DNA from: Dryomyza anilis
Lineage: Eukaryota > Arthropoda > Insecta > Diptera > Dryomyzidae
NCBI GenBank assembly: GCA_951804985.1
Contig: OX638130.1
Coordinates: forward strand, 121,161,593-121,225,592
DNA length: 64,000 bases
Reading direction: 5' to 3'
The notes beneath the pieces are model-generated. The model was not told the DNA's origin. It saw only the letters and a program-made list of their open reading frames with translations, and did no database searches. Made by a program: the position numbers and the translations under genes. Positions 11,936-53,724 of the stretch are shown one piece after another. Numbering within the stretch: the first letter of the stretch is position 1; each line of letters starts with the position of its first letter.

Positions 11936-14100
11936 CAATTTCGCATATTTTCAATTCTTCGGTTTGGTTATTATTAAACCACCGCGTTCTGCATTTTATA
12001 TATTACAATTTATCAATAAACTTTCCACTGCTTTGCACAAAGAACTAACAAGTCTCTCATTTTGCTGTGCTGAGCCCAACAACAGCAACATTCAAGGACA
12101 TTATTCCTGTGCAATAAATGCAAATACTGCAGGGATGCAACATAAATCGAGCTGTAACAAAAACAAAAAAATAGCAACAAATACCAATTTATAACTCTAC
12201 TAAAAACAACAACTTTCACTGCGTCACTGAACTATAAAAGACTGCTGAAGTTAGCTGTAGCTGTAGCAGCAGCCAACCGCAGTTGCGGCAACCTCAAAGC
12301 TTTAAAATGAATGCAGCAAACGCGACGGCAACGGTGGCCACAGCAAAGGAATGTGCGCCACGTAATGCTACAAAATACTTGAGATTATCCGCACTTTTAT
12401 TTCAGGGCAGGCAAAACATATCCTGAAGTTGCTGCTACTACTTGGGGTTTTAAGTTATTTTTTTGTTATAGCATTCGTTTGTAGCCAACTCAAAGTAGTC
12501 GTAGCAGCCGTAGCAGTTGAAGTTGAGAAATACTTAAAATTCGTTGGGGATTCGTTTACTTTGCGTGCTGTATTTTGTATTTATTTCCAGTGCTAAGGCG
12601 GTTGGTCTCCTTTGAAGTTACTTGAAGCTAAATGTCTCAGGAATGTTTTTTCTATTTTTTTGCACCTTTTTTTTAAACATTTTTGTTATTTTTTCTGTTT
12701 TTAAATATTTCTTTTTGCACCTTCAACTGTTTAAATACCGCGCAAAGGTTAAGGTAAAACTCTGCGTGCATTTAAGAGGCAAAAAGAGTACCGAGTAAAT
12801 GGAGTTGAAGCAAAAACAGCGCAAATAAACATGGCTCAAATAGACTGTGCGAATAAAAGTAGCAGCATGAGTTGCTATAAAAACCATGGATTGTTGGCGG
12901 CACAGAATAAATTAGCAGCGCAGGCGATGCACGGCGAGAAATTGGCGGCGATTTTTCGAAAACACAAATGTTGCTCATACGACATGGTGCACGAATCAAA
13001 ACGATTTTGTTTAGTTTTAATTATTATTCTTTTTTATACAGATTAATATAAATATGTTTAAATTGAAATAATTTCAAAAATTTTAATTCATTCTTGAAGG
13101 GTAAAAATGTATTTTATTTAATTTTTATCAAATAATATTTTCATACAGTGTCAAAAGAAAGACTTCATGACGCACCTAAAAAGGATCAAAGTAAAAATAT
13201 AAAAAATAGCCTGATCCTGGTACAAAGCCGTCTACGTCTGCAGCAACGATGCCACCACGTTGTGGTTTTCTTGCGCGCGCTGTCTGCGCCTTAACGACTG
13301 AATGTTTTAATAAAAATAAAATAAAAAATAAAACTAAATAAAGTCGAAAAATAAAACCAATGCCATGGAAACCCTACTCAATTTACTCACTTCATGCTGG
13401 CAGACTCAGAACAACGAACGCACTTGAGTTAAACTTTTGCCTGCCGATTGTAGAAAGCAGAAGCAGGACGCGCAACGTAGCAACGGCAACTCAACGGCAG
13501 CTCAACTGTAGTGAAGTGCAATGCTATGCGATGCTGCACTGAGTGCGTTTAAGACTGCGGCTGCAGTGAATTAACTGCTTTCAGCAGCGCGATTTCAAGG
13601 CGAACAGCACAGCACAGCAATGACTGCCAAAGTGTTTAGTGTTTGTTTTATGCAAAATTTTCATTGAGTTGCGCGCAAAAAGAGACGAAATACTTGAAAC
13701 TTCAGCAACACGTTCAACGAGTTTCAGCAAAGTCGATGCAAGACGGCGTAGTCAATGAATTCAACAAAAAAAAAAAATAAGACCTGATGACGGCAGACAA
13801 AAGAAAAGCAATGCTCGAGGCAAGCAGTTTATTTGATGTTATTAGTGTTTCATTCAGTTTTGTGCTGCATAATGTTGTTATTAAGATAATGAAAAGTATA
13901 GATTAACAAAAGTTTAAACTGTAATAATTAATTTTCATTGCAATTGCTAATGCTTATCAACACGACGATACAAAAATTTAATTTTTGTTTTTGAATAAAA
14001 ATGTCTCAAAAACTAAAAGGAATATGCATTTTGATATTGAAATTCGTCATGAATATTTAGAGTTTAATTGCATTTAAAGTTTTTTGAAAAAGTTATTTTT
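11936..14100. other. Intergenic DNA, no gene recognised
   Basis: Contains CAG/GCA-type tracts (12060-12190, 12250-12300, 13430-13640) and a TATAAAAG sequence at about 12231-12238 that could be a TATA box, although I see no convincing initiator at the expected distance. Open frames here are short, without domains, and overlap on opposite strands. Confidence 0.5.
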
Positions 14101-14175
14101 ATACAAATGTATCAATTGTCAGTTGGAACTATTTCTCCTCGTTATGTAGAGTTATGTAATATAAAAGTTAGTACG

Positions 14176-14190
14176 TAACGTATGAGTAAC
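14176..14190 (+). repeat. 15-bp box, copy 1 (one mismatch)
   Basis: TAACGTATGAGTAAC; G to A at position 2 relative to the consensus. Followed by the CAGCGC and GATTCTA blocks. Confidence 0.8.
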
Positions 14191-14649
14191 AATTGATTAA
14201 TACATACAGCGCTCAGAATAATAAAGCTATTTGCTAGATTCTACATTTGATTCAAATTTATATAAAAGTGATATTTTTGATTATAAATTTTATGAAAATC
14301 ATAAGATAATCTGATGCTATACAAAGGTGTTATATAAAGTTTTAATTTGTTCGTGTTCAAATTCAAATGTCTTAAAAATTAAATACAATATTATATAAAT
14401 GACTTGACAATTCGAAGAAATGCTGCGTTTAAAATTATTTGATTAACTAGTTTTATAAACCTGAGTAATTTTATAATTCAAAAAGTAACAGAAAATAGCT
14501 TGTAATTTATAATACAAATTTTCTATAAAGATAATTTTTATCTCATTTAAAATCAAGAAACTCCCAATTTATTGAAATGATGTATAAATTGTTAGTTGGA
14601 ATTATTTTTTGCCGTTATGTAGAGTAGTATAATATAAAATTTTAATACT

Positions 14650-14664
14650 TGACGTATGAGTAAC
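14650..14664 (+). repeat. 15-bp box, copy 2 (exact)
   Basis: Exact TGACGTATGAGTAAC, followed by CCAGCGCACA about 25 bp downstream. Confidence 0.85.
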
Positions 14665-15136
14665 ATTCCATTTGTGCATCCAGCGCACATTGCAATAAAT
14701 AAATTTGCTATAGTCTTCATCTGATTAAATATTATATTGAAGTGATATTTTTAATATAAATTTTAATTAAATTATAAATTAATGTGATGTTCTAAAATGA
14801 TATTTATAAAAATTTTTCAAATTCAAATGTGAATATCTTAAAAACTAAATAGAATATTTGCGTTATTTTATATACTAAAATTTGCTTTGGCAATTCGAAG
14901 AAGAACTGTTTTTAAAATTTTGTGAAAATCAGCATTTCGAATGTTCTACATTTTTTTATTCTATAAAGTGTCGTGAAATTACTAAAAATTTCGAATGAAA
15001 TTAAGAATTTGAAGTGAAAAAAATGTAGTAAGCAGTTAAAATTAGCAGCCTCACATATTATTTAAATGATGTATGGGATATCACTAGAAAATATTTTCTT
15101 CGTATGTAGAGAAGTATAATAGCAATTTGTAGTACT

Positions 15137-15151
15137 TGACGTATGAGTAAC
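15137..15151 (+). repeat. 15-bp box, copy 3 (exact)
   Basis: Exact TGACGTATGAGTAAC, followed by ATTACATTTAT and TAGCGCAATGAATAAT. Confidence 0.85.
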
Positions 15152-15404
15152 ATTACATTTATATCTGTAGCGCAATGAATAATAAACCAAATTGCTAGTT
15201 ACTTAATTTACTTTAAACTTAAATAAATGAAGCATTTTTTTGAATATAATAATTTAAAAAGGAAATAAATGTGACTTCATAAAGTTGATAAATTTTTAAT
15301 TTTGAAATTATTCGAGTGCAAATACCAATATCTTAAAAACTAAATGCAATATTTGCATGTTTTGATATATTAAAAGTTGCCTTGACAATTAGAACTCAAT
15401 GCTA

Positions 15405-15530
15405 AATGACGCCAGTGGGTTTTACCCAAATTTCAATTTAACAAATTTTTCAAAAAAATGTCCAATGACGCAGGTAGGTTCTAGCCAAAACCCAAAGGTA
15501 CAAAATTTCCCAAAAAAAAAAAAAAAAAAA
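15405..15530 (+). repeat. Two-copy ~60-bp direct repeat at the left edge of an insertion
   Basis: AATGACGCCAGTGGGTT and AATGACGCAGGTAGGTT start about 60 bp apart, each followed by a similar ACCCAAA...ACAAATTTTTC segment. The second copy runs into a poly-A tract (15512-15533). This block and the ~181-bp repeat beside it interrupt the ~480-bp box periodicity, so they are probably one insertion. Confidence 0.6.
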
Positions 15531-15734
15531 TAAAAATAATGTGTGCAATGAATGCCTGTCCAAATTTCAAAGGAACCCATTTTACGTATTTCTAATAACA
15601 CACTTGGATGAGAATATATAGTGTATTGGAATATTTTCAACCAAAAATGTTCTAAAGGAATATCTGTACCTGGGGAAGAATTATGCACAAAATTAGAAGA
15701 ATATATGGGGGAGATATCAGAACAAAATTATCGT

Positions 15735-16262
15735 TTTTTCAAGGTCAAAGTTCACAATTTTCACAAATGGGCTACAATTGGGGTTTATTCAATATAAAAT
15801 GATATTGCGATTTTTTACAGAAAATCTAATGATGACATTCGATTAACTGAATCCCAAGGTTGCATAGGTGAAGAATCAAAACCTTTGAAAAATTTTGCAT
15901 CTCCTAAACGGAGCCTTTTTTCAAGGTCAAAAATAACAATTTTCACAAATGGGCTACTATCGGGGTTTATGCAATATAAACCAATATTGCGATTTTTTAC
16001 AGCAAGTCTAATGATTCCATTCGATTAACCGAATCCCAAGGATGCATAGGTGAAGAAACAAAACCTTTTAAAATTCTGTATCTCTCAACCGAAGCCTTTT
16101 TTCAAGGTCAAAGTTCACAATTTTCACATATGGGCTACAATTGGGGTTTATTTAATATACAACGATATTGCGATTTTTACAGCAAATCTAATGATGCCAT
16201 TCGATTACTGAATTCCAAGGATGCATAGGTGAAGAAACAAAACCTTTGAAAATTCTGTATCA
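15735..16262 (+). repeat. ~181-bp tandem repeat, about three copies
   Basis: The sequence TTCAAGGTCAAAGTTCACAA and its variant TTCAAGGTCAAAAATAACAA recur near 15738, 15919 and 16100, giving periods near 181-182 bp. All three copies share GGGCTAC(A/T)AT(T/C)GGGGTTTA, ATTGCGATTTTT, ATTCGATTAACYGAATCCCAAGG and GCATAGGTGAAGAA. Copies are about 90% alike by eye. It lies where box copies of the surrounding domain would be expected, so it is an insertion or a replaced segment. Confidence 0.85.
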
Positions 16263-16749
16263 TACCTGTAATACCATGTCATCAATGAAAAATTAATAAA
16301 TTTGATCACAATACACTATCGTCTCCATTATCAACCTTTTTGTGACATTTTCACGCTCAAAATTATTGGTCTATTAGAATTTCTGTATCGAAAATACATA
16401 TATGCTTTTATTAGTGGCGATATTTAAAATATGCTTTTGTTCGAAAAAAAATATAAGATATGTTTCCATTTATGGATAAAATAAATGTAAGCTTCAGACG
16501 TATATAAAATGAGAATGAGTTGTTTTTCATAGCTAAAAGAAATGTATGTTTGTTTCAATGAAGCATTTTTAATGCGCGGTGTAGGTATTGGTTCAAAATA
16601 GTAACAAAACTTTGTTTCATTAGATAAATAAATTTTCTACTAAAAAGTTATTTTGCTTAATTTAAAATTAAATTTCAATGATTTCGAATGTAATTTTAAA
16701 TCTCAAAATTTGCTTTTGTAAAATGCATAATTTAAAATTAAAAGTTTTT

Positions 16750-16764
16750 TGACGTATGACTAAC
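16750..16764 (+). repeat. 15-bp box, copy 4 (one mismatch)
   Basis: TGACGTATGACTAAC; G to C at position 11. Downstream flank poorly matched to other copies. Confidence 0.7.
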
Positions 16765-17843
16765 ATTGTAAAAATTGCTTTTACACAAAAAGTAATAAAG
16801 CTGTATAATGTTTTTCAAATAATTCTAAAACAACACTTAAAATGCTAATTTCTCTTATAAACCATTTGAAATTACAAATTAACTAAAACTATTTTTTTTT
16901 GTAATATATAAATTTTATTTAATAATTATAAATGTAATTTTAAATTGCTGAATTCTTGCACCTTATATTTAAACTCAAGGGATTTAAAAGTTAAATAAAA
17001 TTGCCTGAGGTCAGCAGAGTAATTTTCCTACAACAATGTACAACAATAAAACAATTACGTTTATTTACGTCCTCGTTCTCCTGACGTCGTCGTCGTAGTC
17101 GTTATATGTCGTCGTGTGGTAAAATGTGTTTAAAAAAAAATGACATTCATTTGACATTTTGTAGCATTTATAATTTAAACATTTGTCAATGCGCTTTAAA
17201 TGATTGAGTGGCTGATTGATTGTCGAAGGATGCGGACAACAAAACGAAGGATAAACAAGTTGGTAACACACGCGAGGTTGTAATGCAGTTTAAAATCAGA
17301 TGGCCTTTTAAATAAATGCAATAAAATTTTAAGAAATTCCATTGAAAAATTACATAAATAAGGATATAAAAATTAAAAATTATAAATGCGACATGTTGTA
17401 CTAATTAGCTGAGTTTTTTTAAATATAGAAAAACAAAACACTATTTTAAACATTAAAAAGAAATTAGTGCCATTAGTAGCCGATATAATCTTCAATAAAT
17501 GACAACATTATTCATGTGTTTAATGCCCTGGAATATGACGACATAATGCATTGCCAAACCACAGTCAGCTTGTAGAAAAAGGAACATTGCAAACAAAGCA
17601 GCACTTAGTCAATATATATATTTTTCAATTTTTTCGTTGCTTTTATTGTTTTTTTTGTGAAATGCGCATGCATTCATTTATAAACTTCAGGCATAAATCT
17701 ACAAAATAACAATACGCAGAAAAGTAGCAACAAACAAACAATGCAAATAAATGCGGTGTCATGGCGACCGGAAGTCAACATAATTAAAAACACATCAGTG
17801 TTTTATAATAAGTCAGTGGCTTTCTTTAGTTACTGGTGCTACA

Positions 17844-17858
17844 TGACGTATGCGCAAC
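17844..17858 (+). repeat. 15-bp box, variant type TGACGTATGCGCAAC
   Basis: Preceded by CTACA and followed by AATACTTT. The right half differs from the main type (GCGCAAC instead of GAGTAAC) and matches the variant at 20890 better than the main type. Confidence 0.65.
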
Positions 17859-18355
17859 AATACTTTACTGAAATTTACACTACTCCACAAAATTTGAAAA
17901 GAAAAAATATTTCGTATGTTTATTACATACATTGTTACTATATAATTGGATAATGCTGATTTTAAGTGTATACCTAGTTTTCAAATATCAGTTAAAGTTT
18001 AAAATTATTATTCAAATTTCGATTTGTTGTTCATTTTTTTATGCACTTTTATAATAAAGAAAAATTACAGATTTTTTTAGAAGATTTTTATAGAAAACAT
18101 TAAAAGCAATTCTTCTTTAAATTCACAGAGGTAATTTCAATATATAATAAAATATTTAAATTATAATAATTTTGAAATATATACATTTAAACTCGAAAAA
18201 TTAAAAATTTCAAACAAAACAGCTTTATAGGGTTGCATTAATTTATAATTAAAAGTAGTTTACTCTATAAATTAGCCTTTTAAATGTAGTTTTAGAAACC
18301 GAAAAAATCAGGAAGAGCACTTCAGTATTCTTCGCACTATAGGCATAAATGTAAT

Positions 18356-18386
18356 GTTACTCATACGTCATCTACGTATGAGTAAC
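18356..18386. repeat. Palindromic box pair marking an orientation flip
   Basis: GTTACTCATACGTCA (18356-18370, minus-strand copy) directly precedes a plus-strand copy ending ACGTATGAGTAAC at 18386. The arms ATGTTACTCATACGT and ACGTATGAGTAACAT form a perfect 15-bp inverted repeat around CATCT. Read on the minus strand leftward from 18370, the flank continues with ATTACATTTATGCCTATAG, the normal downstream flank of the box, so the repeat unit itself is inverted to the left. Confidence 0.85.
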
Positions 18387-19002
18387 ATTTTCCATTTTAA
18401 TACTTTAGAAAACGAGTAAAAATATTAGCTATTGATATTTCATATATCATTTTATTATAATTTGAGATTAATAATTTTAAATGCATGCTAAGATTTTAAA
18501 ATTTCCACTTAACGTTTTATGGAAATTTGCGTTTCAAATTTTTAGTTATTTTTTAGATTCTTTTTAGAATACATAAATACAGAAAAATTGCTTTTCAATA
18601 AATTTAAATGAAATATTACTTTAAATTTTAATTTTACTTTCAACAAATATACCCCTACCTCAATGTTGTTTCTACTTATTTTGGAATTTAACTCAAAATG
18701 GATTGAATAATTCTTTTATGTTTGATATACCTTTATGTTTTTTTTTTTTAGATTTATTCTAAAATTGTAAATTGTTCTCTTTGTAAAAAAAACTTGTACA
18801 TTATTTAAATTTGTCGTCATTTTTATTTAATTCAAAAAAAAAAAAATGCTTTCACTGGAATTTTTCCGACGAATCGAATTTCGTTTCCATTTACATTATA
18901 AATATTCATATTTAGATGTAAATATCTTGTAATCAAATTGCAATATGTGATTTCAATTGATTTCAATTTTTTGGAAAAAAGACCTATGTCTAGTTGTGTA
19001 AT

Positions 19003-19266
19003 GCTAGAATCACACAATTGATGCAAATCATCAACAATCAATACAATTTTGTCGAATATCAATAAATGAGGGAAAATTTAATGTGAACGCAATTTTGTAT
19101 AAATTTAAAATTTTTATTTTTGTGTCAGTTTCAATGCCAAATTTGAAAAAGCATCAACTAAATGGAGTCAATTTTGGTTGACGACTCGAGCATCAACAAC
19201 ATATATGAATTTTTGAATTGATTCAAACTGAAATTGATGTTATTTAGTCAATAGTGTGATTCGAGC
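19003..19266. mobile_element. MITE-like element, ~264 bp, with imperfect terminal inverted repeats
   Basis: The left end GCTAGAATCACACAATTGA pairs with the reverse complement of the right end (GCTCGAATCACACTATTGA): 12 of 13 terminal bases match, and more of the next ~20 match imperfectly. The interior contains further TTGATG/CATCAA symmetry. No transposase. It sits inside the decayed ~480-bp domain, consistent with insertion between box copies 18372 and 19450. I cannot define a target-site duplication confidently, so the superfamily is open. Confidence 0.6.
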
Positions 19267-19449
19267 TTAAGCTATCATTCTAAAAAGTGATTGAATAGTT
19301 ATCGAAATTTCGATTACAGGTTAATTTCTAGAAATGTGACGTTCTAATAAAAAATTGTGTATACAGTAAGAATCAACATTATAAAAAAGCGATAGATAGC
19401 AAAATTGTTCCCCGTATTGCATAGCAATTTTTATGTACTTGCTAGAAAT

Positions 19450-19464
19450 TGACGTATGAGTAAC
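19450..19464 (+). repeat. 15-bp box, copy 7 (exact)
   Basis: Exact TGACGTATGAGTAAC, followed by ATTTATGCTAACATGTTGCA and AAGCGATTTACTTGATTCTA. Confidence 0.85.
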
Positions 19465-19911
19465 GTTATATTTATGCTAACATGTTGCATATTATTTAAG
19501 CGATTTACTTGATTCTACAGTTATTTAAAACTAAAATTAAACAGCATATTTTTCGTATAAATTTATATAATTAAAAAGTTAATGAAACCTTATAAAACGT
19601 TTTCGTTTCAAATATTATTTTTTTCAAGTTTAGATGCCAATATTTTAAAAAGAGGGAATATTGCCATTTATTTGAAAATTGATATTTGAAATGGTTATTT
19701 AAAAAATTTTGCTTTTTGAAGTTTTTACAAAAACAACTTGTGTAAAGTTCCAGAACTTGTTATTCCAAAAAGTTATGCAATGAGTGCTAAAATGTCAATG
19801 CTAATTTTCTGATAATCATTATGTATAACAAGTATGCAATAAGTTACAAATTTAATAGAATTATATGGAACTAATGTATGCAAATTTTGTGTTTTTTAAA
19901 ATGCTAGTATT

Positions 19912-19926
19912 TGACGTATAAGTAAC
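19912..19926 (+). repeat. 15-bp box, copy 8 (one mismatch)
   Basis: TGACGTATAAGTAAC; G to A at position 9. Followed by AAGCGATTTGAGTGATTCTA. Confidence 0.8.
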
Positions 19927-20393
19927 ATTACGTTTTTGCATTTCAAGCGTAGATTAATTAAGCGATTTGAGTGATTCTAAATGTATTCAGAAGCACAAAT
20001 AAACCGCTAATTTTGAGTATTAATTATTATAAAATATAATTTGAGGCAACTGTATAAAACGGTTTTTCTTTCATTTTAAAAATTTGGTATGTTTAGAAAC
20101 AAATAACTTGACAATAAAAAGAAGTTTGTAAATAGTCTTGATATTGAAATTTAACATGATATTTGGCAGAAAACTTTGTTGAGTTTTTTTTTGAAAAATT
20201 ATATTTTTAAAGTATTATAATTTTTTAAACTTAGAAATGGCTAAAAATATCCTTTTATTTTACTTGCAATTTTGTTAAAAATATAACCTGCTGGAGTATT
20301 CAGTAAAATTACGCTCAAATTCTATACAAACTATTTATAGAAAATTTTTCTAATCAATATTGTAAAGTTCTGTAGATAAAAAAAGCTAACACT

Positions 20394-20408
20394 TGACGTA
20401 TGAGTAAC
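20394..20408 (+). repeat. 15-bp box, copy 9 (exact)
   Basis: Exact TGACGTATGAGTAAC followed by the best-preserved downstream block, ACATTTATGCATATAGCGCA, then CGATTCTAAATGTAC. Confidence 0.85.
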
Positions 20409-20889
20409 ATAACATTTATGCATATAGCGCACAGAATATGTACGCCATTTACTCGATTCTAAATGTACTTAAAACCACATTTAAACAATAATTTTTTGCT
20501 TAAAACTAATATATATATATATATAAAAAACTACGCGACTTTATAAAGTTTTTAATTGTTCAAGTTCAGTTACAAAAATATTGAAAACACAAAAGAATAT
20601 TGTAATATAATTTTATATTAAAATTTGACAATACAAAGAAAAACTGCGTTTAAAATTTTTGAAAAAAATACTTTTCTAAAGCATTTAAAAATTGTTTAAG
20701 CTAAGAAGTGACTGAAAATAGATTGATATTTCAATTGTTATTTTTTATTAAACAACGAAAATAAGTAGAACAAAACTAAGTATGCAGTATTTAAGAGCAC
20801 CCTCGAAGTATTTAAAAATGGTTTATACAATATCCAACAGAAAATCATGCTGAGTAGTGTAATTCACTTTCATCACTTTTTGCCCTACA

Positions 20890-20904
20890 TGACGTATACG
20901 CAAC
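20890..20904 (+). repeat. 15-bp box, variant type TGACGTATACGCAAC
   Basis: Last copy at the right edge of the domain. It shares CTACATGACGTAT and CGCAACA with the copy at 17844. The flanking DNA to the right is ordinary single-copy-looking fly sequence. Confidence 0.65.
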
Positions 20905-20910
20905 ATTTAA

Positions 20911-21980
20911 AGCCATAAATACTTGGCAAATGCAGCGACAATTATTGTTGTTTGCACCGAAGTTGTTTGGTTGTATTTGTTGTTGTTAACTTTTTAACTT
21001 ATTTATGCAGTTTTTGAACTTTTGAATAATAGCAGCAGAAGCAGCAACAAGGCCGTCGCCGTCGTCGCAATAAGCACTAAAATAAAAACTAATAAATTTC
21101 TTTATTGTGCGCGTTTTACACGTGTGACTCAAGTGTAACACATTTATTATCCTTGTTGGTTGGTTGGTTAGTTGGTGCATGTGTGTGTGTGTCTGTGTAT
21201 TTTAAGGATATGCGTGTCAAAGCGCAATAACTATACCGGCTGGCCGCCCACCATTTGTTATTGTTTGTTTTAAAGCCTGCCATAATCTCTGGCATTAAAG
21301 TGGCAACAATTTTTCTTTTATTTGTACTTTGTGCTTATCACAGCACTTGAGTCTCTCTTCTTTTGTTTCATTTTTATTGTTTTAATACTTTTTATTCTTT
21401 TTATATTCTGATTCTTGTCCGACAAATGGCTACTTTAGACAATGAATTCGTTTGGCACATTTGTCGTGATACTTAAGTGGTCGCGATGTGTTGTGTTTTA
21501 ACAAAAAAAATAAAATAACGAAGTGCTCTTAATCGCGATTAGCGCGGCAGCGGGAATAAGTGTGAAGATTATGAAACTTGTTTTGATTTAACATGTTTTA
21601 AAGCTAATTTTCTTTGTAAATTTAGTGAAATATTATAATAAAATTACACGTCAAATGAAAATAGTTTTTTGCAGGCAGTAACTAAGTAAATTCACTAAAT
21701 ATTAGTCAACGTATTATGCGATAAATAATATCCGTTTTGAGCAGTTTAGTAACATCGGCGCATAGTTCTTGAGTTAATAAAAATGTTACATCCAAATGGG
21801 CCATATTTGTTTTTTGTTACAGCTCAATACTTTACTCAGAAAACTAAATAATGTTGGACAAAATTTCACTTTTTCCAAAATAACAAAACGAATGGTATCG
21901 AAGTTAAAAGTTAAGTTAGAAAAGTTAAAAATCAAAAAATATTATTTAATATAAATATTAAAAATATACAATCGATTGCT
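20911..21980. other. Intergenic DNA, no gene recognised
   Basis: Contains AGCAGCAGAAGCAGCAAC near 21030, a short (GT)n run near 21179-21196 and AT-rich filler. No domain-bearing frame. Confidence 0.55.
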
Positions 21981-28149: not shown

Positions 28150-30060
28150 ACTAACTATGACTAAAAAATTATTTATTGCATTTTTTTTGTATTTTACGTT
28201 GAAATTTATGCTGCTTAATTAATATTCGATTAATGCACATAAATCTTCATCAACGTCAAAAAAATATTTATATTTAGCCGGCTACTTTCATGGCCAATTG
28301 CGGCACACTTTTATCCTCATTCTTTACAACAGTCTTTGCACATCCTTTAACTGGTACAATGCAGCAGCAATATTTCGCGCAACGTTTAAAAAAGAGATAT
28401 GAAAAAAACAAACATAATCTGTGCATTTAAAACTTTAAACTCGACTCGTGAAAGTCAGCTGTAAGCGTTGTTGGCTTTGGAATGATTTATGCGCTGCCAA
28501 GTGGCAGCAGCTCATTTAGCCACCTTCTCGCTTTCCCCACTGAGGAGGATACTTTGAAAATTTATCGCTGAAGAAAGCAATTAAAGTGATATTTAGTTAC
28601 CTGAGTTTGATGCGCTGAGAGAGATGCTACATTAATTAATTTGCAAGTTGATGATGTTGCTGTTTTTTTGATGTTTTTTTTGTTTAGTTTGTTTTATGCT
28701 ACGCACACAGCAAGCAGCTAGAATCCTTGAATCCTTTCGCAGGAGCTGCAGCAAAGCAAAGCACGTTGACTGCGCTAATCCGGTTGTTTAAAGTTTCTCG
28801 TTTTTGTTGAAACCGTTGTCGTTCCTTTGCAGCTGTTGTTGCTGCTGCTTTTGTTGCTGATTAAGGACACTGCATAATTAAATGAAGCAAGGACATTCTT
28901 GGCAACACCACGTAAGAAATTAAAATTTTTCGTTTTTCGCTTGCAGGGCAGCGGAGCTAATAAATCACTTTAGGCAAAATTAATAAAACATAAATCACGC
29001 GTGCAACAGCAGGACGAAAAAGGACATTTTTCGATTTTTCTCTCCTTTGCACTTTTTGTTCTGTTGTATGGGATTTTGGTATGCAACAGCGAACGTTTTA
29101 CGTTTATTTAACGGCCAACGATAAACTTTATGTTTCGAGCAGGATCAACACAGAGACACACATGCATTTAATGCACACACGCACACACACACACAGATGG
29201 ACAGACACGCACACTGCTACTACTGCTGTTGTTGCGACGGATGTGCGCTGCAACCGGAAGCGGATATTGTAACAGTATTCACTGCACTTGAGTTGCGCTG
29301 CGCTTTTATTTATTTATTATTATTTTATTTATTATTTTTACAACTTGTGTTCGTGCCGCCTGCAGTCAGTCAGCAGTCCGCCAGCAATTAAATAAATATT
29401 TATTTATTCGTTGTTCTTGTTTATTTGTCTCGTTTCTCCTCTTCTTCTTCTTTTTATGAATAATTTATTTTCGGTTATTTTGTATTTTATTCTATTTTTT
29501 CTGTGTTTATTTTGGTTTATTTTATTTCACGCAGCGGAGCGCACGAAAAGCAATGCCGATGCGTTAAGTGGTTGCACGAGTACTGAATGCTGTCGACTAA
29601 TCGCTCGGTGCTTTGGCTCCACGAAGTCGTTGCGACACGAGTGCCTTGAATTGGTCGAAACACGACACGAGATTGTGCGACGCCCGTTCGTTCGTTTAAT
29701 TTCGTTCGCTACATTCGACGTATTCGTGGCGCTGTACTCGTTTGTTGAGGTGCATTGTTGGACACATGTTGTTGGCAACACTGTGTGTGTGGGCAACATG
29801 TTGTGCTGTGTTAGGGATGTGTCTTTTTGGTAGATTGGACTTTGTAAGAGATAGAAAAGTAATTTTGAAATATATAATTTTTTTTTGTGGATTTTGTAAA
29901 AGATAATTATAAATATTATAATATTTTTTATTTCATAATATTTTATTGCATATGTGTATTTCTACTTACAAACTTCTACTTACTTTTATTTTAATTTTAT
30001 TTGAATTATTTTATTACATTTTAATTTATTTTACAATTTTTGTATTTATGTAAAGCTATT
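28150..30060. other. Intergenic DNA, GC-richer island at 28480-29830, no gene recognised
   Basis: Contains opa-like GCAGCAGC and TTGTTGCTGCTGCTTTTG tracts (28500-28860), an (AC)n tract at about 29157-29217 and a CpG-containing island (29530-29830) with many TTCGT/ACGA words. The open frames across 29411-29833 (plus) and 29527-29799 (minus) overlap antiparallel and show no domain. A first exon or promoter of a neighbouring gene is possible but not demonstrable. Confidence 0.5.
29157..29217. repeat. (AC)n-rich microsatellite
   Basis: Interrupted ACACAC/GCACAC dinucleotide tract. Confidence 0.85.
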
Positions 30061-33915: not shown

Positions 33916-34964
33916 TTATGTATGGAACTCGATTTCTTTTGCATGGCCACCACGGGCACGCTTGCAGAAGTCCAGACGCTGAACCCAATTTTCGACGGTT
34001 TTCAAGCATAAATCGGCTGATATTGCTGCAATTTTACGTTCGATATTCGTACGAAGTTCATCAATCGTTGGCATAGACCATAGACTTGACATAGCCCGAC
34101 AGGAAATAGTCTAATCGCACGACCGAGGCGGCCAATCGACTGGACCATTTCGTGAGATAACAATTTCTCCAAACTTGGTTTCCAATAAATTGATTGTGGC
34201 ATTCGCTGTGTGGCTTGTGGCGCCATCCTGTTGGAACCACATGTCCTCCAAGTCCATATCATCCAATTGGGGCGAAAAATATTCGGTTATCATTGAACGG
34301 TAGCGATTCCCATTCACAGTAACGTGCCGGTCTTGATCATCACGGAAGAAGTACGGTCCATAAACCGCACCAAACCGTAATTTTTTCGGGATGCAATGAT
34401 GACTCATGGAGTACGTGTGGATTGCTGTCTGACCAATAACGCATATTTTGTTTATTGACGAAGCCATTCAGCCAGAAATGAGCCTCATCGCTAAAGATGA
34501 TTTTTCGATGAAAATCCGAATCATTTTCAAGTTGTTGCTCAGCCCAATTCACGAACATACGAAGCTTCTGGTGGTCAAGCGGCTTCAGTGCTTGCGTCAG
34601 TTTTATTTTGTAAGGATGTAGGCCAAGATCTTTTCGCAAAATTCGCCACAAGGACGTCACAATGATGCCCAACGCTTGAGAACGACGTGTGAGAGACACA
34701 TTTGGGCTTTCTTCAACTGAAGCCTCAGCGGTAGCAATATCCTCGACACTACGGGCACTTCTTTGTCTCGCTGGCACGGGAACATTTTGTACTGTGCCTG
34801 TGGATTCAAATTTTTCCACTAGACGCTCAAATTGTTGATCTGCTAGGACGATTATGACGACCATAGATTGGACGTAGCGCTCTTAATGTTGAGGCCACTG
34901 ACTCCGAATTTCGGTAGTAAATTTTAATAATTTCGACTCGTTGTTGGCTCGTATATCTTTCCAT
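33916..34964 (-). pseudogene. DD41D-type transposase pseudogene
   Basis: The start is probably at 34962-34964 (MERYTSQQRVEIIKIYY, the N-terminal helix-turn-helix found in many insect transposase-derived proteins, with YGRHNRPSRSTI), and the natural end is the TAA at 33916-33918 after AKEIEFHT. Order: HTH; LTRRSQALGIIVTSLWRILR second HTH; catalytic core with FSDEAHFWLNGFVNKQN (first D), MWFQQDGATSHTANATINLL (second D), then DYFLSGYVKS (third D). Breaks: frameshift near 34825 (STI to QQFERLVEKF), frameshift near 34370 (TVWCGL to AVYGPYFFRDD), and a ~10-bp deletion near 34110 that removes the residues just before the third catalytic D and gives an immediate TAG. The expected length of ~350 residues matches the span. 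Dead copy. Confidence 0.88.
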
Positions 34965-38605: not shown

Positions 38606-41600
38606 ACGAATTTGGAGTGGTTAGTGTGAAATACTATAATAACTCTCACTATAAAAACGTTTGACATACACCATCTTAAAAATGCGCCTTCTATGGAGGA
38701 TGACACGTCTAGTGGTCCGATCCCGTTCACATTCGGCGAGACCGTTTAGAATGGATAAATATAACGCTGACCAAAATTTCATTAAAATTGCTATCCCAAT
38801 TGCTTATATAATGTGTTTTTAATTTTTGGGTTATATGGCAGGTGCAACGTCCAATCCATCAATCTCACCAAGATATAGCCTATACTCTGCACAGATCCAA
38901 CATACATATTGTGTAAAAATGTTATTCAATTCGGTTCAGCCGTTTTTTTGTCTATTCGGAACATGGGGTTGGTTTTTTTTTTTAGTTTTGACTGTTCCAG
39001 AAAATCGAAAATTTTGACAATGTTCTAAATCTAGATTTATTAATATTTCAACATCTTTCCTTTGTAGTCAACAATATGTAAAATTTTAAAATTGTGGTTT
39101 TTGAAATGGAATTTTACAAAATATGATAATAATTATTAAATTATTTTTAAAAACTAGACTTAAAAAACTATGATCTAATATATTTTTTTTATATGTGGGG
39201 TACATTTTTTATCTTATCTTTGAAGAATCATTAAATTTGTTGTAAAATTATTATAGATTTTTCACAGTGTGTCCTTTATTTCCTGAATATAAATTTTATA
39301 ATAAAAACATAAATTTTCTAAAAAAAAGTCATAATTTTTTCCACCGTACGCGGCCGCCCTCAAACGTGTCAAACCTATGGTGCTAAATGCGGTTTTTATA
39401 CATCGACGTATAGCGGAAACTTGCGCCAGGTGGTAACCCTTTAATACCAGGTTACTTTATCGAATGAAATTTTCGCTTTTCATCTTGAGTCAATGAGACA
39501 ACGTCGATGATACCAACGACACAGACGACGACGATGACAACCTCGACGGCGTCATCAAAGCATAACTTTGACAATTTTAATGAAATGACATCAACTACAG
39601 GGTGTTTATGATGGCAACGTCTTCACATGTGCAGCAGCGACGTAATTTGCGCTGCTGCTGCTGCGACAACATTTTAAGTGCTTTTTTGTGGGCGGTGCGC
39701 CACCAGGCAGGAGTATCAAAAGCACTCGAAAGAGTTGCTCCAATCATTTTTCAAATGCGAAGCAGCAGGAGTAGGCTGTTAAAATGTGTCGATGTCACTG
39801 AGTTTTGTCAGCGATTATGAGAGTTGCCTGCCACATGTAGTTGTTGTAATTGTTAACAAAATATCGTGTTTGGTTTTTTGTTGCCTCTTATATCCTTATT
39901 GTTGAGATAAACAATTTTGACAAAAGTTGTCTTTAAATTTTATGGCAAGTCATTAATTTGTAAATTTATTTATATCGATAGTTTTTTGGGTGCTACAAAA
40001 TTTTAGCTGAATTGGTAGGATACACTTAATTTGTGGCTTATCACATTTTGTAGCATTCTCTATCAACGTAAGGGACCGTTTTAATGAGGGTTGCAAGGGT
40101 TACAAGGGTTACAAGGTTCAATTTAGAGCCTGTTTGGGAATTAACGAGTATAAAATAATGTCACAGAGCTGTAGTTAAAACTGGAAATGAGTTTAATCTT
40201 TGGAACATTTTTCAGAGTTGATTGGGGAGTACATAAAATAAATATAAAATATGGAACATTTATGAAATACACTTTATGACTAAAATGTTGAAATAAAAAT
40301 TATAATTTTTGATAGAATTCTTTGGTTTGATATGTTTTTAATGTTTTTTTTAGGGTATAAAAGAAAAATTTGTTACATTAGTAGAGTTAGAATTTTTTAC
40401 ATTTTAATGATAATACAACGCAAGACGATATTTTCTATAAGCAGTCTTTATATCATTTTTATATAATTTAATAATACTAATTCTAACTGCATTCCCAGTT
40501 TTTTTCTACTGCGCACCGTTCTTCAAACAAATAATTTCGAAATTTCAGGATATATTTCAGCACTTTTTAGAAACAAAAAATTATAGCATATTAAAAAAGT
40601 AGATTTTCAATTTATTTTAATTTTAGTTTTAATCCTAATTATTAAGTTAAATTTTAATATATTTTTGAGTTTCAAGATATTTTAAAACTTTATATTTTGG
40701 ACTATTTTTGAATTCTTCGAATGTATAATTTTCTCTTTGAAGATAAGTATATTTTAAGCATGATTTAGATAAAATGATCATTTAAACTAGAAAGATGCAC
40801 AAATGCATTTGAAACCCACTTCACGAGATTCATTTTATTTCAAAACAGTTACTGTCGCCTACTGTATGCATGAAAATCCAATGGATATGTTGCTCACAAC
40901 AAGCACTGTCAAAACAAAACAACACTGCAGTGAAGAGGTCTATAAGGGTGTGTAATAAAAATTCATATATTGCATATAAATTTTGTTTAATATTCTTACT
41001 CTAACGAATTTTCATGAATATTGAAATTTAGAAAACTAAACAAAAGGTAAGAAAACTAAACAAAAGGTCATATAATAGTTTATATTATGCTTCTTATTTA
41101 TCGAACAAAATTTTGTTCATTATTTAATTTTTTTCAATTTTTTTATGGTATATTGCTTATCGACCAATGCGTTGTTTTTGTTGTACACATTGTTTTTAAC
41201 AATTATTTTTTTTTTAATAAATAATGTTTGTTGTATTTTTATAAACATATAAATACCGACAATAACATTACTGCTGTCTTACACCGAACGGCAGATTTGT
41301 TGTTACTTTCAAAGTTCGTTTTCTCACTTGTTATTCATTGCGCTTACTCGCTGCACTCACTGTATTCGTTGCATGTTCAGCGACAAAAGTGTCATTTGAT
41401 TTTGTTTGTCAAAGCATTTATTGTTTTGAATGTCGTGATGTTTTGACAGTACTTGACACCAATGCAACACATACTGCAGTAAAGTGAAGTCGGCCGAGAG
41501 ACTTCACCATAATACTGTCGACTGTCATTGCAAAATGCATTCCAAACTGTAGAGTGCAGTAGTGCATATTTTGCAGAGGGAACATCAAATATATTTGTGC

Positions 41601-42875
41601 AGATGTCTAAAATAAACCAAGCCATAAAAGTGATTTTAATGAACTGAGGGAGAATTTTCTACAGATTGAATAAGAACCGTATCGATTTTGGGAACCGGAA
41701 TCGGTACTAGAATCGGAAATAGAATTGGAACTAGAATCGGAACCGTTTTTAGGAAATGTGTGCAACCGGAATTTATATATATTTCTTTTTGGTTGAAACC
41801 GAAACCGCCATTTTTAAGGTTTAAGTCCTTGGATAAGACTACTTATTAAGATTTTGTATGTCATTTCTAGATGACTACAGGTTTGCAGATATACTGCATA
41901 CTCCTAATTTACTTTTTGTAACACGTAAAGTATTTTAGAAAAATGTCAAAGTAATTTTAAATAACATTTCCTTAAATACATGAGGGACAAACAAATTATA
42001 TTGATTAAAAGGAGCACCACAAAACAAAATTTAAATCAAAAATCGTATGCGTGAATTTGTATTTAATCTGAAGACTTGAAGAGTGATTTGCAAAAACAAA
42101 GTAAGAGGAATCATAGAATTATGGATCTAGTTTCATATATAATAAATAATTTTATTGAATTACAAAAACTTAATATGTTATGCAAAAAATAATAGGCACA
42201 TCTAAAATCAATCGGTCTGATTAATCCGAAATTTTTGTATTTATTTATTTTATTTATTTCAAAATATTAGCTGAAGTATTCTCAGAGGAATATAAAAGAA
42301 ATTGAATCTTTTACACCAAACTGTAAAATGTTTAAATCCAAAATAAACACGATATATATTTGTATTACGTAATAACTCAAAACTTAAGGCAATCTGAAAA
42401 AACTCAGTATGAGGTTGTGATTAGAATCTTGAAATCCATTGGAAAATCATACTAAAATCGTGGATAATTAAAAAAGCTCTCCATTTGTTGTCAAGTGTAA
42501 TTTAAGGCACATTTTAGAATAAAAAAAATGTACAGAAGTTTACAATAACTGTTCTTCAAAATATTATAAATGAAATTTTTCTTTCAATTGTCATATCTAA
42601 TTTTAATATAATAAATATCTCTCATATTCCGAAAAGGTTTCCAAATATTTGGCGCTAAAAAAAAAATAATTTTAACGACTTTTTTAAAATACTTAGCAAA
42701 ATTTGTTTAAATTAAATATGCTTTAAGCCTGACAACATTTAAAGCAAAATTTATATTATTTATTAAATTTTGTATAATTTCATATTTTGAATTTTAAATG
42801 AAAACTACCCCAAATAATAGCTAATATCCTAATAATAACAATACCAAACTTGAGATTTCCTATTATCATTTCTTA
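38606..42875. other. Intergenic DNA, no gene recognised
   Basis: Contains small repeats only: (GGGTTACAA)3 near 40087-40116, a duplicated GAAAACTAAACAAAAGGTA near 41030-41068, and a degenerate GGAATCGGAACTAGAATC tract near 41670-41750. The stretch 39330-39830 is GC-richer, with a GCGGCCGC octamer near 39350 and CAGCAG/CTGCTG tracts. A degenerate TTATAGCAYWTTAMAAAA word at about 40580 recurs at 43326 and 43829, hinting at another decayed long repeat. Open frames have no domains. Confidence 0.5.
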
Positions 42876-42877
42876 TA

Positions 42878-43195
42878 CACAGAAAAAATAATCATCGTTA
42901 ATATAGCAACCGATATTAAATGCATTCATTAAATCAATCCAGAAATGAAATTAACTAATTTAATGAAAACATTTATTCTTCGTTAATTCAGCAATTACGT
43001 TTGCTAATATGAACATTTGTACGTCAATGCAATAAATAACTTAGTCGACGCAGTTTTAGCAAATATAATTGCTGAAACTGCTACTAATTAATAATATCAA
43101 ATTTTTTCATTAAATTAGTGAATTTTATTGCTAGATTGCTTAATGAATGCAATCGATGTTGAATGCTACATTTACGTCGATTATTTTGTTCTGTG
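42878..43195. mobile_element. MITE copy 1 (~318 bp, TA-flanked)
   Basis: The left end CACAGAAAAAATAATCATCG and the right end (reverse complement CACAGAACAAAATAATCGAC) are inverted repeats extending imperfectly for about 55 bp to a shared TGCATTCATTAA. Both sides are flanked by TA. The interior carries TTAGCAAATATAATTGCTGA and CAGCAATTACGTTTGC blocks also found in copy 2 at 45444. No coding capacity. The TA target suggests mobilisation by a Tc1/mariner-type transposase, which is inference. Confidence 0.8.
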
Positions 43196-43197
43196 TA

Positions 43198-44797
43198 TCA
43201 TTTCTAAATAATTCGAGGGTTTTGGTTCTTACTGCATAATCAATATTTTTTATCACATAATATTTTTCAGAAGAATTTGTCACTGAAATTTTAAGTAATT
43301 TTTAAACACTTTTTAGAATATATGAATTATAGCACTTAACAAAAATATTATATCAAAAATCTGTATACGCAAAAAAATTCTTGATTTGTCAGTCAAATTT
43401 TAATATAAAATTGAATGTCTATATTATAATTAGGTTTTATATATTTTTGAACTTAATTTTGAAAAATTATAATTTATTTGTAGAATTTTCGTTCTAAATT
43501 TTTTGAATTATTTGTATAATACATTTTAAAAAATTTGTTTAAATTTAGAATCGTTTTATTTATTGATATTTTTTATACTTTATATTTGCTTTTAAAAATG
43601 TTCTTCCAACTAAACCAATTTTCTGTACAACATAGCAAATTATTTAATCTTAAAGATAATACCACTCAACTCAATTTTTACTATGGGTACCCCTCATATC
43701 ATTTATATATAATTTCAGAATGCTGATTCTAACTGCTTACTCAGATTTTTTCTAACTCTACACGTTTTGCAGTTAAATTTTCAATTATATATTAAAATTT
43801 GTTTGCCACATTTTATGTTAAAAATATTATAGCACTTTACAAAAGTAGGTTTTACAAAAAAACTTAAATGCAAATTTTCTGCTAATTGTAAAGCCTAATT
43901 TTAATATATTATAATCTGTTTTTGAAATATTTAAATCTAAACTATTTATTTAGACCATTTCAGAGTAATTTGAATTCATTAATTTACTGGTTTTATTTAT
44001 TAAAGTATTATTAAATTATTATTAATTAGAGTAATAAAATATTATTTATTTGTTTTTTATATTTTTAATTTTTTTTTGTTTAAAAATACCGCTAAAAAAT
44101 TCTCACACAAACGCTTCAGCTCATAAAGAAACAGCCATTTATTGCCGTGTGCGACATAAGCGGATTTTTATTTTGTGACTCACATGCTCCGCTCGAATTA
44201 AAAACATAAGTGCGACGCACACGGCGAAAAGTGAAAACAGACCAAAAGTGGCACTACGTCCACGAAAGTACTGCTTGTCTTTGGGCGGCATCGTTGTCGT
44301 CCTCGTTGGTTTTAAATTATGTTTCACCTGAGAAACACATTTATTATGCTTGTATGTTCAGTTCTTTATTTGCAGCTTTTGTTTTTAATATTTTTGAGTT
44401 GCGTTTTTTTGGAAGGCAGCTGCCTGGAAATGCGGTGGTGATTCTTGTACAGGGTCCTGGCGCGTCGGGCGCATATTGCGCGAAGGAGTTGTTCAATTAT
44501 TCTTAATGGGCTGCAAAGTGAAATTTTATGAAGTGAGCAATTTCATTTAATATTTGCGCACATCGCAAATGAAAGGTAATAAAAGTGACTGCAATGATAT
44601 ATATGGCAAAATGGCATCAAGAATTATTGGTCCACATTTTTTTTTTTTGTTCAGCTGGTTTTATTTTTTCGCTTAATGTTTTTGGTGTCTTGTCAGCTGA
44701 CACGAATTTTTATTGCTGCGTCAAGCAACAGGTTTATTAATATTTTTTTAATTTGAGATTTGCAAGGTTTTTTCTTTTTTTTTTTTTAATTTGAGAA
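43198..44797. other. Intergenic DNA, no gene recognised
   Basis: The TTATAGCACTTTACAAAA-type word recurs ~503 bp apart (43326, 43829), suggesting a decayed long-period repeat. 44100-44520 is GC-richer, with no domain in any frame. Confidence 0.5.
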
Positions 44798-44798
44798 T

Positions 44799-45313
44799 AG
44801 GTTACTCTGTGAAAAATCACGTTCGTGAATTATCGTGAAAACCGCTCAAACGTGACTCATTTATCAAAATTATAACATATCACCTTGAAAAACGGGTCAA
44901 AAAACGAACTTCCAGAGTGGCCAACTTGTCCATATTTTTACATCTTAACCCTTAAAGGTTGCTGAATCTTGTCGAGTAATCGGTTTCTCTGTGAAAAATC
45001 ACGTTCGTGAATGATCGTGAAAACCGCACAATCGTGACTCATTTATCAAAATTATGACATATCACCTTGAAAAACGGATCAAAAACGGAACTTCCAGAGT
45101 TGCCAACTTGTCCATATTTTCACATCTTAACCCTTAAAGGTTTCTTAATCTTGTCGTGTAATCGGTTTCTCTGTGAAAAATCACGTTCGTGAATTATCGT
45201 GAAAACCACTCAAATGTGATTCATTTATCAACATTATGACATATCACCTTGAAAAACGGATCAAAAACGGAACTTCCAGAGTGGCCAACTTGTCCATATT
45301 TTCACATCTCACC
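44799..45313 (+). repeat. ~181-bp tandem repeat, three copies (unrelated to 15735-16262)
   Basis: GTTACTCTGTGAAAAATCAC (44801), GTTTCTCTGTGAAAAATCAC (44983) and the same at 45164 start three monomers 181-182 bp long, about 93-95% alike by eye. Each contains CACGTTCGTGAATKATCGTG, ACATATCACCTTGAAAAACG, CTTCCAGAGTKGCCAACTTG and ATCTTAACCCTTAAAGG. The third copy breaks off after CACATCT. Confidence 0.93.
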
Positions 45314-50690: not shown

Positions 50691-52030
50691 AAACTCTTAT
50701 TAAATAAATGTTAAATATTTGTCATGCAACTAATTTCAATAAATCATATTAAAATATCAAAAATAGTTTATTATAAAATATATTTGGTTTTGTTTTATTT
50801 TATTTTTTTTTTGTTTTGTTTATACGCCATTGCATTAAACGCGCAATAATCTATTTAATCTGTTTTAACATATTAATTAATTTTTCAATTGACTAGCAGC
50901 AACATTTGCCAATTGATTTTTTATTTTTTTAATTGCATTTTTGCCGCATGCGCTTCAAAATAGGCGGCTGTTGTAGTAAATGAAACAAAATGCAAAAATG
51001 TTAAATTGCATTTTGAAATTTAAAACATTTTAGTGAAAGCCACCCAACCAATATCTATTTGAAATGGCCGTAAATAGCAGGAATTTTACGAGACTCTTCG
51101 CGCTTTTTTGAATGCAACACATTTAAAGCAGGCATTAAATATTTGGCGTTCGCGTGCCGCAATTCAATAAATATTCGCAGAAACCGATACTCGCGGTAAA
51201 GGCGAAAATGCAGAAAAAAATACAACGAACTCAAGAAACTTGAAAAAATAAATAAATAAATGAAAAATAGTAAGGAGTAGTAGCAACACTAATCGTTTTT
51301 AAAGTGCAAGCGGTACTTAAGAGTTGCCGTGTTTCTTTTATTTTGAAACTTGCCACGAAACGAACGACCTTTTCGCGCTGTTGTTTCATTTCAATTTTTA
51401 TTTTTGTTTTTATTTTTAACTGGTCTTTGGAGGGTCTCTTCTCTCTGCGTGGGAACATAAATTCCCCTTTAAAATAGTTTCGCAACACTTTTATTATTAT
51501 TTTCGCCCCCGCATTGCGCTGCATGTTTCATGAGTTCAAGGAATTTTAAGAACTTTACGAACTTACGAAACCCTTCACTCTGACATTGGGCGGCGTCGCT
51601 TCGTTCCGTTCCGATTCGACTCAACTCGTTTCGATGGACAGAGCGAGACAACGATTTGCGCCAGAAAGAGAGCACATGTACTTTGCGTTAAGAAGCATAA
51701 GTACTTCCGACTTTAAAAGCATGTCACATCCGGTTTCGTTTTCCAGCCGTGAAGCGTATGATTTGATGTGAATGCCCAGAAGTGGTGAAGACCGAACCAG
51801 AGAGCAGAACCAAACCAGAAGACAACGCTTCAGGTAGGCAGGGTTAAAGGGTTGCAAAAGTTGGCACAAAGTATGAAGAACTTAGTGCATGGCAGACGGT
51901 AAATGCATTACCGCGAAAAATGGACTTGTCAGGCAGTATCAGCTGAAATCAAGGAGAAATTTAGTGAACGTAATGAATTTTTGAAATTCGTGAATTTGAT
52001 GTACATTATGATTTTGATGAATTTTATGAA
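50691..52030. other. Intergenic DNA, no gene recognised
   Basis: 51500-51870 is GC-richer with short antiparallel open frames and no domain. The last 50 bp (51985-52030) contain loose GAATTTT/GATGAATTTTATG words that look like ancestral units of the adjoining octamer array. Confidence 0.5.
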
Positions 52031-52032
52031 TT

Positions 52033-53724
52033 TTATGTATTTATGTATTTATGTATTTATGTATTTATGTATTTATGTATTTATGTATTTATGTATTTAT
52101 GTATTTATGTATTTATGTATTTATGTATTTATGTATTTATGTATTTATGTATTTATGTATTTATGTATTTATGTATTTATGTATTTATGTATTTATGTAT
52201 TTATGTATTTATGTATTTATGTATTTATGTATTTATGTATTTATGTATTTATGTATTTATGTATTTATGTATTTATGTATTTATGTATTTATGTATTTAT
52301 GTATTTATGTATTTATGTATTTATGTATTTATGTATTTATGTATTTATGTATTTATGTATTTATGTATTTATGTATTTATGTATTTATGTATTTATGTAT
52401 TTATGTATTTATGTATTTATGTATTTATGTATTTATGTATTTATGTATTTATGTATTTATGTATTTATGTATTTATGTATTTATGTATTTATGTATTTAT
52501 GTATTTATGTATTTATGTATTTATGTATTTATGTATTTATGTATTTATGTATTTATGTATTTATGTATTTATGTATTTATGTATTTATGTTTTTATGTAT
52601 TTATGTATTTATGTATTTATGTATTTATGTATTTATGTATTTATGTATTTATGTATTTATGTATTTATGTATTTATGTATTTATGTATTTATGTATTTAT
52701 GTATTTATGTATTTATGTATTTATGTATTTATGTATTTATGTATTTATGTATTTATGTATTTATGTATTTATGTATTTATGTATTTATGTATTTATGTAT
52801 TTATGTATTTATGTATTTATGTATTTATGTATTTATGTATTTATGTATTTATGTATTTATGTATTTATGTATTTATGTATTTATGTATTTATGTATTTAT
52901 GTATTTATGTATTTATGTATTTATGTATTTATGTATTTATGTATTTATGTATTTATGTATTTATGTATTTATGTATTTATGTATTTATGTATTTATGTAT
53001 TTATGTATTTATGTATTTATGTATTTATGTATTTATGTATTTATGTATTTATGTATTTATGTATTTATGTATTTATGTATTTATGTATTTATGTATTTAT
53101 GTATTTATGTATTTATGTATTTATGTATTTATGTATTTATGTATTTATGTATTTATGTATTTATGTATTTATGTATTTATGTATTTATGTATTTATGTAT
53201 TTATGTATTTATGTATTTATGTATTTATGTATTTATGTATTTATGTATTTATGTATTTATGTATTTATGTATATATGTATTTATGTATTTATGTATTTAT
53301 GTATTTATGTATTTATGTATTTATGTATTTATGTATTTATGTATTTATGTATTTATGTATTTATGTATTTATGTATTTATGTATTTATGTATTTATGTAT
53401 TTATGTATTTATGTATTTATGTATTTATGTATTTATGTATTTATGTATTTATGTATTTATGTATTTATGTATTTATGTATTTATGTATTTATGTATTTAT
53501 GTATTTATGTATTTATGTATTTATGTATTTATGTATTTATGTATTTATGTATTTATGTATTTATGTATTTATGTATTTATGTATTTATGTATTTATGTAT
53601 TTATGTATTTATGTATTTATGTATTTATGTATTTATGTATTTATGTATTTATGTATTTATGTATTTATGTATTTATGTATTTATGTATTTATGTATTTAT
53701 GTATTTATGTATTTATGTATTTAT
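52033..53724 (+). repeat. 8-bp satellite array (ATTTATGT)n, ~1.7 kb, near-perfect
   Basis: About 211 tandem octamers with only two substitutions that I can see, at 52591 (A to T) and 53273 (T to A). All three plus frames are open and encode the same MYLCIYVF cycle, which creates three overlapping spurious ~560-700 residue frames. It is not a gene. Confidence 0.98.

Follow-up and report, generated by a model that had tools for sequence, protein, structure and literature searches.

A 15-bp box matching the CATAC core is kept across a decayed tandem array in the fly Dryomyza anilis

The Clock-Associated Transcriptional Activation Cassette (CATAC) is an enhancer element from Drosophila (Sharp et al. 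2017, PMC5499816). In D. melanogaster, CATAC elements form clusters, of seven elements at Pdp1 and four at Slob, and four of the eight published elements carry a single mismatch in the core. Reporters with four CATAC copies show higher expression and a stronger rhythm than mutated versions, in which a residual rhythm remains. The reporter rhythm requires cyc and per, while the expression level is still high without CYC. Genome-wide, CATAC sites show no enrichment of CLK binding, and the authors infer another regulator; rhythm was also obtained from elements with poorer E-boxes (PMC5499816). A 10/10 core is printed as well in the DNA of the non-clock gene sog of D. melanogaster (PMC6932828). 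The core is therefore not confined to clock genes. Searched by name, CATAC was found in one paper only in our literature search.

Other described arrangements also bring many copies of a short site together. Homotypic clusters of transcription-factor sites pack a single site many times over into one stretch of DNA. Macrosatellites such as DXZ4 have one architectural site per unit, and the CENP-B box of alpha satellite is likewise a short box, retained in a tandem repeat that diverges around it. In this study, we examine a box array in a window of 64,000 nucleotides of D. anilis DNA, an array that resembles all three arrangements in form and CATAC in sequence.

The box, TGACGTATGAGTAAC, occurs in 12 copies with up to three mismatches, all within 12970-20904 and none elsewhere in the 64-kb window; 0.92 copies per 64 kb are expected by chance, and the maximum over 100 shuffles was 4. 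An initial annotation of this DNA had placed four exact copies (14650, 15137, 19450, 20394) and three with one mismatch (14176, 16750, 19912) correctly. It overlooked a fifth exact copy (18356, minus strand) and, among the further variants, those with two mismatches at 12970 (minus strand), 17844 and 18372, the last being the inverted partner of 18356, and the copy with three mismatches at 20890. The spacing of 460-530 bp that it gave is borne out in three runs (14176-15137, 17844-18372 and 19450-20890; 462-528 bp), whereas the remaining gaps measure 1078-1613 bp, one of them containing a 182-bp tandem repeat. At exactly four mismatches, 19 more sites appear, scattered and in many cases inside AT-rich minisatellites. 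Of the 3983 15-mers of 12000-21600 with a G+C content of at least 0.33, those with 12 matches number 26, every one of them on the box motif; A/T-only 15-mers of the same region exceed 12 matches, with up to 111. Other tandem repeats of the window include two of period 182 bp, at 15734-16261 and 44796-45309, without a mutual BLAST match at E up to 0.01, and about 212 copies of TTTATGTA at 52023-53724, which match at 99% and are open in three reading frames.

The boxes sit in units of roughly 480 bp that are repeated in tandem (Table 1). Seven full units were recovered, three at 13937-15393, one on the minus strand at 18115-18610 and three at 19218-20638, by BLAST and by a profile built from the same seven units, which makes the E-values of full units high by construction. 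BLAST pairs 14580-15394 with 14107-14899 (E 1e-79) and, in inverted orientation, 19450-19650 with 18370-18170 (E 2e-18). As profile controls, the reversed window gave no match at E up to 1, and the best E over eight locally shuffled windows was 0.033. The units have been duplicated in tandem and have drifted, yet they do align, with 51-65% identity outside the box in the profile alignment of those seven, and are less decayed than the "near-unalignable" state first ascribed to them. The unit-profile search detected no unit flank around the site at 12965-12993 and no unit left of the box at 17844. Related fragments farther along the window, at 40417-43882, never reach the box columns of the model (241-255), and no box with up to three mismatches occurs there.

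Table 1. Box copies, repeat units and related fragments, in window coordinates
Feature	Coordinates	Strand	Box and core	Remarks
CATAC-like site	12965..12993	+	box 12970-12984 on minus strand; core TGCTCATACG 9/10	E-box-like part 3/6
Full ~480-bp unit	13937..14417	+	box TAACGTATGAGTAAC at 14176-14190; core 9/10 on complement	
Full unit	14411..14900	+	exact box 14650-14664; core 9/10	
Full unit	14895..15393	+	exact box 15137-15151; core 9/10	
Partial unit (model 241-375)	16749..16883	+	starts at box 16750-16764 TGACGTATGACTAAC; core 8/10	E 4.7e-5
Box	17844..17858	+	TGACGTATGCGCAAC; complement is the only 10/10 core (TGCGCATACG)	
Decayed partial unit (model 2-225)	17873..18121	-		E 4.7e-5; beside oppositely oriented box 17844
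Full unit	18115..18610	-	exact box 18356-18370	
Palindromic double box	18356..18386		18356 (-) and 18372 (+), head to head	16-bp arms including flanking bases
Full unit	19218..19688	+	exact box 19450-19464	
Full unit	19701..20152	+	box TGACGTATAAGTAAC at 19912-19926; core 8/10	
Full unit	20162..20638	+	exact box 20394-20408	E-box-like part CAAGTG, 5/6, the best in any box
Partial unit (model 7-259)	20637..20907	+	ends at box 20890-20904 TGACGTATACGCAAC; core TGCGTATACG 9/10	E 1.2e-11
Related, more decayed unit fragments	40632-40417, 43359-43192, 43882-43674	-	no box	E 7.5e-14 to 1.4e-8; model 5-208
Weaker related fragments	42584-42501, 42659-42581	-	no box	E 0.0017, 0.0033; model 5-85, 421-498

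Within these diverged units the box itself is under constraint. Averaged over pairs of the seven full units, identity is 0.96 for the box columns and 0.575 for the others; the highest value of any separate window of 15 columns is 0.76, and none of 20000 column permutations was as high as the box. On a tree of the seven units from which the box was left out (total length 3.62 substitutions/site), the 15 box columns take 2 changes, against 11 in the next-best separate 15-column window and about 25 expected; 0 of 1,000,000 draws of 15 gap-free outside columns were as low. When all 12 copies are anchored on the box without gaps, the box shows an identity of 0.88, and every 15-bp bin within 240 bp of it has 0.28-0.50. 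The initial annotation had claimed that a short box, of the kind bound by proteins, is kept while the unit decays, and had set a comparison with flanking blocks as the test. The counts and identities above are the outcome of that comparison, with the box far more conserved, and they support the claim.

A mutational or alignment artefact, whether through gene conversion or through a G+C-richer anchor that gives the box a false look of conservation, would agree with a box that is G+C-richer than its unit and with an alignment and profile made from units chosen by the box. We nonetheless hold it to be very improbable. Gap-free columns outside the box show a mean of 1.65 changes, and those with a G/C consensus change more, not less (2.28 vs 1.55 per column). 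Conversion would have homogenised the flanks as well, and the copy at 12970 lacks a detected unit flank while those at 17844 and 20890 have a flank on one side only. It is slightly less improbable, although still a poor prospect, that the array consists of copies of an old mobile element, with the box as its end or as the site bound by its transposase. Detectable similarity between units does break off at the box or next to it in three places (16749, 17873/17844 and 20907), and boxes lie in both orientations. Seven units, however, continue unbroken through the box, and lasting constraint is not explained by a mobile end. The longest inverted repeats of 12900-21000 (25 of 318 pairs) link the inverted unit 18115-18610 to other units and bound no element, and by eye no target-site duplication of more than 2 bp flanks 12970-20904.

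The "undescribed system" for which the box had been put forward as a candidate is not borne out, since its sequence agrees with that of the CATAC core, a fly element already published. In a text search of 5.39 million papers with six 10-11-letter fragments of the box, 22 papers contained at least one fragment, among them PMC6932828, and a single one, that of Sharp et al. (PMC5499816), contained four; the whole 15-mer and six 14-15-letter strings had no occurrence in the same kind of search. The complement of the box reads GTTACTCATACGTCA in the array and GTTGCGCATACGTCA at 17844. The core TRCGCATACG (nt 8-17) is matched at 10/10 in one copy, 9/10 in nine and 8/10 in two. With a matrix of nt 6-18 from the eight published D. 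melanogaster elements, 10 of the 12 boxes outrank every non-box site of the window; box 19912 ranks lower, and 16750 is absent from the best 20 sites. When the matrix spans the full 29 bp, first rank goes to a site that is not a box, at 29774, eight of the 12 boxes fall within the best 24 sites, and 16750, 18356, 18372 and 19912 are absent from those 24. Single core scores are not extreme, as the null maximum averages 14.9 and ranges up to 19.0 and ten boxes score 14.4-17.9. The pattern TTRCNYATACG, written after both sequence sets had been seen, has 11 matches in the window, 11/11 of them boxes, against a null mean of 0.36 and a largest count of 3 in 300 simulated windows.

The agreement extends to which positions vary. 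Nucleotides 8 and 13-17 are invariant in 12/12 boxes and 8/8 published elements, and the variable core positions coincide (nt 9, A/G; nt 11, T/G here and G/T/C in the published set; nt 12, C/T), with one exception at nt 10 in box 16750. The rank correlation of variability between boxes and published elements is 0.89 (rho) over nt 8-17, 0.70 over nt 6-20 and 0.54 over nt 1-29. Of the residues mutated in the dead constructs of the CATAC paper, four (nt 8, 10, 14 and 16) are kept in 12, 11, 12 and 12 of the 12 boxes. Because array copies are paralogues, this core agreement counts as few independent events: the array founder, 12970 and 17844, to which 20890, with its unit-like left flank, may perhaps be added.

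The locus resembles the published clusters (PMC5499816) further in that its sites are clustered and lie in both orientations. It differs in that tandem duplication of ~480-bp units has multiplied its sites to about 12, in having G in place of A at nt 6 and T in place of C at nt 18, and in mostly not keeping the E-box-like part. For CRCGTG (nt 19-24), the 12 boxes retain 1-5 of 6 positions, with a mean of 3.3 against a background of 1.4, and nt 21 is C in 1/12 boxes vs 8/8 published elements. The likeness claimed is thus to the CATAC core and not to the full CATAC. The only CACGTG of the window lies at 21119, 215 bp from box 20890, and is followed 5 bp later by CAAGTG. This lone CACGTG and the missing box in the fragments at 40417-43882 count against the CATAC reading.

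The strength and sharp bounds of the constraint in a tandem array, together with the tolerance of both orientations and of a palindrome, would also suit a protein that has nothing to do with CATAC, whether architectural, insulator or of another kind, bZIP proteins included, in which case the CATAC match would be due to chance; the presence of the core at sog (PMC6932828) points the same way. This reading is unlikely, though it deserves more weight than the artefact or the mobile element, given a core of 9-10 of 10 in 10/12 copies, the shared variable positions and the ranking by a matrix taken from outside sequences. Of the bZIP half-sites, TGACG and GTAAC lie 5 bp apart in the box, and TGAGTAA by itself is one base from AP-1 TGAGTCA; by eye and against the consensus, the bZIP reading is a poorer match than the CATAC core. 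The RFX X-box, compared in the same manner, was set aside as a poorer match. A reading as RNA or hairpin was also rejected, since the folding of two single-box stretches does not clearly exceed that of shuffles (z -1.3 and +1.3); only the palindromic pair at 18356-18386, near-perfect, has a strong predicted DNA hairpin (z -9.2 vs shuffles). The site of NRF1 / erect wing, GCGCATGCGC (PMC10810270), comes close in one respect, with TGCGCATACG of 17844 one base from TGCGCATGCG. It differs in that the invariant half of the box here is ATACG, and YGCGCAYGCGCR does not occur in the 64-kb window. As a candidate CATAC-core factor, NRF1 / erect wing is only a lead suggested by this resemblance.

We consider it probable, from the sequence evidence, that the array is a homotypic cluster of CATAC-core enhancer sites that arose by tandem duplication and in which selection has kept only the core. 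Since the box matches the CATAC core, the array is better read as a tandemly multiplied control element than as a centromere-like satellite. The CENP-B comparison made at the outset holds for a short box kept in a diverging repeat and is weakened by the local nature of the cluster, with about nine units in the window; the same locality, and the match of the box to a promoter element, set the array apart from both alpha satellite and DXZ4. From other homotypic clusters it differs in that its copies come from long duplicated units that later decayed.

The history of such a cluster may be outlined as follows. CATAC-type sites would originally have stood in the non-coding DNA of a gene, and a segment carrying one of them was copied into a tandem series with some of the copies inverted. 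The unit copies then drifted to about 57% identity, with selection holding the 15-bp core, and the extra inverted box at 18372 forms a palindrome with 18356, as a template switch might produce. The roughly 12 sites would be expected to act as a homotypic enhancer through a putative CATAC-core factor. By analogy with the D. melanogaster reporters, the cluster is predicted to increase host-gene transcription and to make it cycle daily under control of the clock. Because the E-box-like part is not kept, this action would take place mostly without direct binding of CLK/CYC. The fuller proposal, of a naturally multimerised circadian enhancer in which a 12-site CATAC array keeps the core, has released the E-box and depends on a CATAC-core factor instead of direct CLK/CYC binding, is put forward tentatively and is more doubtful than the enhancer cluster itself.

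A host gene is presumed, and Pdp1 would be only a guess. With 10 ORFs and a set of probes, no clock-gene exon was recognised in the window. The three non-array sites recall the order and orientation of Pdp1 elements 1-3, but the identity is too weak for a claim to Pdp1 as host, at 14-18 of 29 bp to four Pdp1 elements and 13-16 to four Slob elements. The stretch 29535-29850 is G+C-richer and looks by eye like a minus-strand first exon; 29774-29802, the best full-length CATAC matrix score of the window, lies within it. Rfam gave zero matches at gathering score, and a search with bacterial settings found no tRNA. Pfam matches on the 10 ORFs were few and all below curated cut-offs, two of Tc1 type looking real. 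Fragments of a mariner-type transposase lie on the minus strand at 34002-34882; the best named match of the query 34340-34882 is 88% to a Daktulosphaira protein, followed by gall wasp and beetle, and the retroelements of the window have their nearest named matches in Drosophila and Eurosta.

Which factor acts on the CATAC core is a question left by the 2017 paper (PMC5499816). A core that survives 3.6 substitutions/site may serve as a natural footprint, covering nt 6-20 and chiefly T8 and ATACG at nt 13-17. The array suggests that the E-box is dispensable, and the box itself would offer a convenient bait for a CATAC-core protein. If this reading is true, the locus would be an example of a tandem repeat turned into a regulatory array.
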